From Intestinimonas butyriciproducens (lineage in GTDB: Bacteria > Bacillota > Clostridia > Oscillospirales > Butyricicoccaceae): 64,000 nt of DNA. Both the position numbers and the translations under genes were made by a program. Positions 2,353-44,055 of the stretch are shown one piece after another (the first letter of the stretch is position 1; each line of letters opens with the position of its first letter). The stretch is taken from assembly GCF_016901775.1 (NCBI RefSeq), contig NZ_JACJKW010000007.1, positions 62,001 to 126,000 on the forward strand. The letters are read 5' to 3'. The notes beneath the pieces were generated by a model. That model did not search any database. It saw only the letters and a program-made list of their open reading frames with translations, and was not told the origin of the DNA.

Positions 2353-2532
2353 CAGACTGTCGAAAAACCACTATAGCGAAAAGAAACCGTTCGCCCTACC
2401 CTTAATCAATTTGCAAAAAGCCGCGACCTGTGCGTGGCTTTTTGCACCTCTCAAGGGGCAAGTGTGCGCCAAAGGCGTGCATGCGGCCCCTTGCAAAAAC
2501 TCGAAAAAGTGGCCTAAGCCACTTTTTCGACA
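2353..2532 (-). repeat. Structured intergenic element, copy A (180 nt, minus orientation)
   Basis: Read on the minus strand the element starts TGTCGAAAAAGTGGC and ends GACAGTCTG. It holds a GAAAAAGTGGC/GCCACTTTTTC hairpin, a GCAAGGGGC/GCCCCTTG stem enclosing a variable dyad (GCGCC/GGCGC type), and a third hairpin around the core ACGCACAGGTCGC (2435-2423). TGTCGAAAAA occurs in inverted orientation at 2358-2367 and 2532-2523, like short terminal inverted repeats. It sits exactly between the two copies of the 37-nt direct repeat. No protein is encoded. Copies B (3904-4101) and C (43804-43969) share the plan. I do not recognise a named family. Confidence 0.75.
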
Positions 2533-3858: not shown

Positions 3859-3892
3859 AAACCGGCAGCTGGGGAAACAGCAAAAGACCCAG
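3859..3892 (+). repeat. Spacer repeat of the tRNA region, copy 1 (left flank of element copy B)
   Basis: These 34 nt match 4102-4135 with one mismatch and resemble a third copy near 4245-4278. The unit normally precedes (on the plus strand) a tRNA-operon terminator. Here the terminator half is degenerate (about 3884-3903) and no tRNA follows. Upstream, 3747-3858 shows no gene. Confidence 0.7.
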
Positions 3893-3903
3893 GCCTTTTG
3901 AGC

Positions 3904-4101
3904 GTTTCGAGAAAGTGGATTCAGACCACTTTCTCGAGTTTTGCAAGGGTCTGCGTGCAGCCGATAGACCACTTTCAGCGGCCTATCGGCCACACTGGCC
4001 CCTTGAGAAGTGTAAAAACCGACGCACAGGTCGCCGGTTTTTACCCATTGATATGGGAAAGGACAAACATTTCCCCAGCCGAATAAATTTTCCACAGTCT
4101 G
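3904..4101 (+). repeat. Structured intergenic element, copy B (about 198 nt, plus orientation)
   Basis: The copy starts with a GAGAAAGTGG/CCACTTTCTC hairpin (3910-3936), followed by TTTTGCAAGGG, a variable middle hairpin with GCCGATAG pairing to CTATCGGC, then GGCCCCTTG, the invariant core ACGCACAGGTCGC at 4022-4034 inside the third hairpin, and ends CACAGTCTG at about 4101, followed by A as in the other copies. It is flanked by the duplicated spacer repeat (3859-3892 and 4102-4135). It is non-coding. It is the most diverged of the three copies, yet the dyads are kept, which favours a structured RNA or DNA element. Confidence 0.7.
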
Positions 4102-4135
4102 AAACCGGCAGCTGGGAAAACAGCAAAAGACCCAG
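4102..4135 (+). repeat. Spacer repeat of the tRNA region, copy 2 (right flank of element copy B)
   Basis: Abuts the GTCTG end of element copy B and matches 3859-3892 in 33 of 34 positions. It runs into the terminator at 4125-4155. Confidence 0.7.
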
Positions 4136-4155
4136 ATCTTTCGACCTGGGTCTTT
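4125..4155 (-). terminator. Terminator downstream of the tRNA fragment
   Basis: AGACCCAG and CTGGGTCT pair around ATCTTTCGAC, with A/T tracts on each side. It is nearly the same sequence as the terminator at 4271-4303, so the two arose by duplication. Confidence 0.8.
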
Positions 4156-4156
4156 G

Positions 4157-4209
4157 TGGAGCGGCCCGGCAGATTCGAACTGCCGGGTGCGCCTTCCTGG
4201 AAGGCGTAC
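4157..4209 (-). pseudogene. Truncated tRNA (3' part only)
   Basis: On the minus strand there is an intact anticodon-like stem-loop (CGCCT, TCCAGGA, AGGCG), a short variable region, a perfect T arm (GGCAG-TTCGAAT-CTGCC), the acceptor strand GGGCCGC, a T discriminator and an encoded CCA. The expected 5' acceptor strand GCGGCCC and the D arm are absent upstream (4210-4228 is A/T-rich). The short variable loop rules out Leu or Ser type. It is followed by its own terminator copy, so it is a remnant of a once complete tRNA unit. Identity is uncertain; a Gly tRNA is possible from the CGCTCCA end. Confidence 0.7.
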
Positions 4210-4270
4210 CCTTTTCTTATTTTAAAGCGCAAAACCTACGGTTTTGCACAGGTCGGCAGTTCGGAAAACA

Positions 4271-4303
4271 GCAAAAGGCCCAGGTCTTTCGACCTGGGCC
4301 TTT
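4271..4303 (-). terminator. Terminator of the tRNA-Trp-Asp-Thr operon
   Basis: AGGCCCAGGT and ACCTGGGCCT pair around CTTTCG just 3' of the tRNA-Thr CCA end. Confidence 0.85.
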
Positions 4304-4380
4304 GTGGAGCTGTTGAGCAGATTCGAACTGCCGACCTCGTCATTACCAATGACGTGCTCTGCCAACTGAGCTACAACAGC
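4304..4380 (-). tRNA. tRNA-Thr (anticodon GGT)
   Basis: The cloverleaf is complete: acceptor GCTGTTG with CAACAGC, D arm with AGTTGGCAGAGC, anticodon loop TTGGTAA in a CGTCA/TGACG stem, T loop TTCGAAT, and an encoded CCA. It is the last gene of a three-tRNA operon transcribed from 4622 towards lower coordinates. Confidence 0.95.
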
Positions 4381-43767: not shown

Positions 43768-43801
43768 CACAAAAAGAAGGCCTTCGGGCCTTCTTTTTGT
43801 G
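43768..43801 (+). terminator. Terminator of the rnf operon
   Basis: CACAAAAAGAAGGCC and GGCCTTCTTTTTGTG pair around TTCG. Its 3' half (43783-43798) is duplicated at 43978-43993 beyond element copy C. Confidence 0.9.
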
Positions 43802-43803
43802 TA

Positions 43804-43969
43804 CCGAAAAAGTGGCTCAGGCCACTTTTTCCAGTTTTTGCAAGGGGCTGCGCGCAGCCAATTGGCCACACTTGCCCCTTGAAAAGTGCAAAAATCCACG
43901 CACAGGTCGCGGCTTTTTGCAGATTGATAAAATACTTCCTTCGAACTAAATCAGTTTTTGGATCGTCTG
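43804..43969 (+). repeat. Structured intergenic element, copy C (about 166 nt, plus orientation)
   Basis: It begins CCGAAAAAGTGGC with the GAAAAAGTGGC/GCCACTTTTTC hairpin (43806-43831). It then has TTTTTGCAAGGGGC pairing to GCCCCTTG with GCCAATTGGC as the internal dyad, and the third hairpin around ACGCACAGGTCGC at 43898-43910. It ends CGTCTG then A. It is flanked by the rnf terminator and a 16-nt duplicate of its 3' half. It encodes no protein. Confidence 0.75.
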
Positions 43970-43977
43970 ATGCGGGA

Positions 43978-43993
43978 TTCGGGCCTTCTTTTT
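43978..43993 (+). repeat. Right duplicate of the rnf terminator 3' arm flanking copy C
   Basis: 16 nt identical to 43783-43798 (loop, 3' arm and start of the T tract of the rnf terminator). The following 43994-44055 is T-rich and has no gene. Confidence 0.7.
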
Positions 43994-44055
43994 TTGAATT
44001 TTGCTTTTTGTCCTGGCGATTTTTCACTGTTCCACTAAAATTCACCATTTTCCGG

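Follow-up and report, generated by a model that had tools for sequence, protein, structure and literature searches.

A strongly structured, apparently mobile repeat flanked by duplicated terminator hairpins in Intestinimonas butyriciproducens and other members of its class

Bacterial MITEs, among them the pneumococcal RUP, BOX and SPRITE, are short, many-copy, intergenic and hairpin-rich elements that possess terminal inverted repeats, are accompanied by target duplications and carry no transposase of their own (PMC3049150, PMC10969869). SPRITE resembles a terminator, and its description reports neither an insertion into one nor an established target duplication (PMC3049150, PMC10969869). Among the IS1182 family, IS1272 and TnSha1 of staphylococci select their target by hairpin shape, this often being a transcription terminator, and insert in either orientation (PMC5678879, PMC4923244). 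IS1272 was found to remove its target hairpin wholly or partly, without duplication (Wan and colleagues, PMC5678879), and the deletion of terminator hairpins without duplication has also been described by Furi and colleagues (PMC4923244). In addition, Wan and colleagues outlined a hypothetical pathway b, in which the joining of a transposon end to an extruded hairpin at its 5' feet results in duplication of the whole stem-loop (PMC5678879). The REP and BIME elements associated with TnpA-REP (RAYT) are hairpins found dispersed, for which movement in trans has been proposed, through a stable enzyme recognising single-stranded DNA in its folded form, with REPs being single short hairpins that have a GT[AG]G foot (PMC6006769).

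The repeat described here shares traits with each of these systems, and was studied from a window of 64,000 nucleotides of Intestinimonas butyriciproducens DNA (the whole stretch that was analysed). Target duplications in bacteria are usually of a few base pairs and of fixed length, and REPs are not known to make any. Group IIC introns insert beside terminator hairpins and are far larger than this element; they are not known to duplicate the terminator. No match to an Rfam group II intron was obtained.

Searching the window with a model built from aligned copies identified exactly three strong copies of the repeat (2405-2500 on the minus strand, 3937-4052 and 43834-43928 on the plus strand). 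These lie within element copy A (2353-2532, minus strand, delimited from the model match and the copy ends), copy B (3902-4101, plus strand), which belongs to a long interior class, and copy C (43802-43969, plus strand, placed end to end by alignment of own-genome copies). The common form is about 170-200 bp in length (roughly 180 bp) and comprises three hairpins, enclosed by imperfect terminal inverted repeats of 15 bp (GAGCGTGTCGAAAAA and CAGACTGTCGAAAAA, read from the copy ends and identical at 12 of 15 positions), the left of which is also the start of hairpin 1. On the plus strand of copy C, hairpin 1 lies at the left end (43806-43831) with a stem of 11 bp, its arms varying together between copies (e.g. 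L019, L021, L066 and L079). It is followed by the middle hairpin (43841-43881), with outer arms CAAGGGG (43841-43847) and CCCCTTG (43875-43881) and an apical dyad, GCCAATTGGC (43857-43866), flanked by conserved CTGCRYGCA and CACACTTG. These outer arms are those of the own genome; another genus has ATCGG and CCGAT. Hairpin 3 (43888-43920) has a stem of ten or more pairs and a conserved loop of the general form GYRCAYGYC, being GCACAGGTC in the own genome and GCRCATGTC elsewhere. On its 3' side the common form continues with a variable tail and then the right end, TTTTTCGACAGTCTG. Both loop sequences and unpaired motifs beside the stems were found to be conserved across genera, and folding was beyond that expected by chance for copy A as single-stranded DNA (z = -5.6) and for copy C as RNA (z = -3.1). 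An element of a congener (L036:1480-1735) was found to have the same left end and to lie between duplicated terminators, with an interior that is almost wholly different, only the hairpin-3 layout (GTG-stem-CGCATGTC-stem-CGGATT) being in common.

In its own genome the repeat matched about 40 places by BLAST and gave 77 strong matches with a covariance model of 96 positions, with the same model matching 55 of 197 relatives (21 of 85 genera). A second model matched 18 of 391 genomes across the class, including families outside the order; within this one bacterial class the element occurs in several orders, and its presence between genera is patchy. No element match was obtained among plasmids, phages and viral contigs, and literature searches returned no description of the repeat. 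Overall, it is a real, strongly structured and mobile element, apparently undescribed in the literature and databases searched. Being short and present in many copies, lacking its own transposase and possessing both terminal inverted repeats and a target duplication, it shares these features with bacterial MITEs.

Flanking direct repeats were identified for 54 of the 75 own-genome copies, each exceeding the highest value among 222 mismatched flank pairs, and these begin and end at nearly constant distances from the element core. The repeats have a median length of 25 bp (range 12-43 bp) and in most cases comprise an entire rho-independent terminator stem-loop; a perfect stem of at least 6 bp was present in 39 of the 54, compared with 2.8% of shuffles. 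The T-run is kept by the right terminator copy (4.6 T of 8) and reduced in the left (2.0), the T-run of the left copy having been lost to the element. A different terminator was found at each copy, showing insertion into hairpins without a sequence consensus. Copies with flanking repeats were nearly absent from divergent intergenic regions (1 of 47), and the remaining 21 of the 75 own copies had no convincing flanking repeat. Of 83 copies from other genera, 26 had flanking repeats above the control maximum, and the pattern extends to another family within the order. Compared with RUP, BOX and SPRITE, the duplicated target is here mostly a whole terminator stem-loop of ~25 bp, the stems covary across genera and orders, and the loop motif is conserved class-wide.

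Within the window, direct-repeat searching showed copy A to lie between identical terminator hairpins of 37 bp (left, 2533-2569; right, 2316-2352; minus strand), and copy B between direct repeats of 43 bp with 4 mismatches (3859-3901 and 4102-4144, plus strand). Copy C is preceded by a rho-independent terminator, CAAAAAGAAGGCCTTCGGGCCTTCTTTTTGTG (43770-43801, plus strand), and followed by a decayed second terminator copy (43978-43996, plus strand), recognized from a direct repeat of 19 bp, with one mismatch, on the two sides of the element. Elsewhere in the genome, copy L011 has terminator hairpins of 26 bp on both sides. The duplicated segment of copy B has a third occurrence at about 4255-4305, beside a tRNA-Thr gene, with three near-identical terminator segments present in 450 bp (3859-4305). 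At the locus of copy C, a congener possesses the flanking genes and neither the element nor the terminator; the site is thus variable between congeners, and the empty site shows no pre-insertion terminator. Among relatives, a member from another family (L100:1501-1595) has a flanking duplication of 13 bp that is a ribosome-binding-site stretch, GATAAGGAGGAAA, and not a hairpin. Two others, with neighbouring genes assigned by Pfam, are situated in apparent operons with no clear flanking duplication (L099:1401-1623, pheS/pheT; L279:1438-1652, ybaB/recR).

The first-pass annotation of copy C had drawn attention to the middle hairpin, proposing that its interior differs between copies A, B and C while remaining a dyad in each, as a mark of selection on structure. 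Direct reading located a dyad in all three, GCCGATAG...CTATCGGC being that of copy B and GCCAATTGGC that of copy C, each directly preceding a CACACT[T/G]GCCCC block as had been described. The dyad of copy A is not a perfect GCGCC/GGCGC, the type given in the annotation; it contains CGCC-TTT-GGCG, with arms GCGCC/GGCGT on the plus strand and only partial flanking pairs. Moreover, the differences between the three interiors are not covariation. They represent different length or sequence classes, i.e. insertions or replacements, with interior length classes of ~30, 50 and 90-101 nt found among the 75 own copies. The longest class is formed by five copies (L056, L158, L159, L160 and L161), four of which share TTTGCTCCGGTAGGTTGT..., and these may be either a separate subfamily or the result of a nested insertion. 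Copies with a middle region that is not self-complementary had been named in the annotation as counter-evidence, and this was in part encountered: copies L145, L156 and L163 have no clear apical dyad, and the entire middle hairpin is absent from three loci of a related genus. As these three loci (L048:1498-1552, L049:1498-1552 and L207:566-620) retain hairpin 3, the middle hairpin seems to be dispensable there. Covariation above phylogenetic background was nevertheless still present.

The broader expectation of a structure kept across many sequence changes was borne out, on pairs other than those that had been named. For own-genome copies (78 distinct rows) a covariation score of 0.163 was obtained compared to 0.056 for shuffled data, with 103 cells changed on both sides, while copies of other genera (83 distinct rows) gave 0.735 compared to 0.175. 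Among the latter, double changes that kept the pair were seen at all 21 tested pairs, hairpin 3 having them at 13 of 13 pairs across genera, and the signal was lost when the partner was shifted by 1-3 columns. As both alignments (78 own and 83 other-genera rows) had been fitted to the model, a stricter test with a tree-based null was added on gap-free stretches. This used an R-scape-like script, not R-scape itself, and 114 distinct sequences, with substitutions re-placed at random on a FastTree topology and an APC-corrected G statistic. Covariation statistics over the copies had been named in the annotation as the check on its reading, and the repeat passed: at E<0.05, 9 of the 19 proposed pairs were significant compared to 0 of ~1,200 other pairs, five of the nine being located in the outer middle stem (of six pairs there) and four in hairpin 3. 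It is thereby these two parts, the outer middle stem and hairpin 3, that covary above phylogenetic background.

Such covariation, together with loops conserved across many genera and stable RNA folding, would favour an explanation in which the element is transcribed into a structured RNA, either a small RNA or a cis element, on a mobile carrier, with stems kept for RNA function, as does the presence of some relatives' copies inside apparent operons (e.g. pheS-pheT and ybaB-recR). This explanation was examined by comparing G-U with A-C pairs, which arise from the same kind of transition, a working RNA strand being expected to show G-U in excess of A-C. Among about 3,100 pair cells of the element, with one conserved A-C position left out, there were ~3,000 Watson-Crick, 33 G-U and 34 A-C cells, while eight tRNAs of the same data gave 155, 12 and 0, respectively (Fisher p=0.0008). 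The G-U share was about 1% in the element compared to 7% in the tRNAs. Copies are also found both ways round relative to genes (in tandem gene contexts, 20 are co-directional and 14 opposite), and copy C contains no promoter-like site. With Rfam 15, only tRNAs were matched in the window at gathering score, 14 related loci gave no match at E<=0.05 except for a T-box elsewhere, and copy C itself had only matches below every gathering score. Identity with an Rfam family was consequently rejected at both gathering and relaxed thresholds, the matches being at chance level. Of 161 sequences, the position left out, a special pair of hairpin 3, is A-C in 116, A-T in 24 and G-C in 12, with 0 G-T. Read from the complementary strand, these would be G-T, A-T and G-C, as if the bottom strand folds, though this is one position only and it could instead be a contact site; the conserved A-C pair could likewise correspond to a G-U pair of a bottom-strand RNA.

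Taken together, a transcribed RNA is judged unlikely, and that reading is not supported. The annotation had held that the element may be a transcribed RNA and that this was a question separate from mobility, a view at odds with the rarity of G-U pairs, the two orientations, the absence of an Rfam match and the mobile-element boundaries. Because the boundaries of the copies consist of terminal inverted repeats and duplicated terminator hairpins, the structure most simply belongs to the mobile element, and structure and mobility look like one question. It is more likely that the shape is kept because mobile DNA must fold than because a useful RNA is made, and the repeat is filed as a MITE-like element and not as an RNA family.

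Matched arms could also be mainly mutational in origin, with template switching during replication perfecting imperfect palindromes and giving covariation with little selection. One-sided G-U intermediates are nearly absent and the strands are symmetrical, as this explanation would have it. Using the divergence between the two terminator copies as a clock for upkeep after insertion, the rate of broken pairs relative to terminator divergence was 0.77 (0.50-1.21; 53 copies), i.e. close to that divergence, which also agrees with template switching. However, this process would not conserve the loops and unpaired motifs adjacent to stems that are conserved across genera. Furthermore, the oldest copies (terminator divergence of 10%) have fewer broken pairs than divergence predicts, although the same process could cause this, and the youngest already have some. 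The upkeep data fit either correction between the arms or selection that acts on the lineage while it moves, and they agree with the presence as well as the absence of selection on single copies. A mainly mutational origin is considered improbable. That the host retains the element at gene ends, to provide an additional terminator or to stabilise mRNA, is very improbable, since despite the location at terminators and the terminator-like T-rich sequence after hairpin 1 of copy C, insertion in both orientations, absence from the congener's orthologous locus and patchy presence between genera look more like a mobile repeat than a maintained host function.

A mover for the element was sought among genes of its own and related genomes, and none was found. 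No match to an IS1182-type transposase was found in the own genome (G000) or in G001, and no DDE_Tnp_1 transposase in the own genome. Within 1.5 kb of the copies there was no recurring transposase, and the only recurring neighbour proteins were translated from the repeat itself or from flanks in common. Y1 genes were patchy, with no element in the loci fetched around them; in this the repeat differs from REP and RAYT, as the Y1 genes of the genomes studied here are not flanked by the element. IS1182, DDE_Tnp_1 and Y1 transposases were accordingly rejected as movers, being absent, patchy or unlinked. Searching with end sequences returned no autonomous copies, all near-perfect left ends in the own genome being those of known copies. 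Fragments of an IS200-type Y1 transposase were observed exactly at contig ends (L213 and L220, at the end of G000:C3 and the start of G000:C68), which is what a repeated gene would give where it had interrupted the assembly.

The best explanation, regarded as somewhat more probable than not, is that of a non-autonomous, MITE-like element that serves a recombinase as a substrate in the form of folded DNA and that goes into terminator hairpins at their feet. We infer the role of the hairpins as a folded-DNA substrate from three observations: the symmetry of the strands, the conservation of the loop and the link with mobility. The element would be moved in trans, as is thought for REPs, by a recombinase or transposase for which the hairpins have to be present as folded DNA, the folding strand probably being opposite to that reported here. 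This mover would connect both ends of the element to an extruded target hairpin at its two feet, with repair then duplicating the whole terminator. Selection on structure may act mainly on lineages that are still moving, and the perfect matching of the arms may be aided by template switching from one arm to the other.

As with IS1272 and TnSha1, hairpins that are often terminators are targeted by shape and in either orientation. In contrast to IS1272, the target hairpin is duplicated here and not removed, and the own genome has no IS1182 transposase. The element shows the duplicating outcome of pathway b in dozens of natural insertions. That the duplicated unit varies in length and is in most cases an entire terminator suggests that DNA shape is recognised, and the dozens of insertions per genome offer natural material for testing attack on cruciform or hairpin DNA. 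Strong covariation in an intergenic repeat alone does not prove an RNA, and the comparison of G-U with A-C pairs is a simple check that can be applied to other candidate structured RNAs. More tentatively, it is possible that transposition operates class-wide, with a folded single strand of the element (hairpin 3 and its conserved loop, on the bottom strand) being read by a recombinase that acts in trans and is as yet undescribed. This enzyme would attack extruded terminator hairpins at their two feet and duplicate the whole terminator. If so, this class-wide system would be the natural counterpart of a hairpin-duplicating pathway that has so far been only hypothetical.
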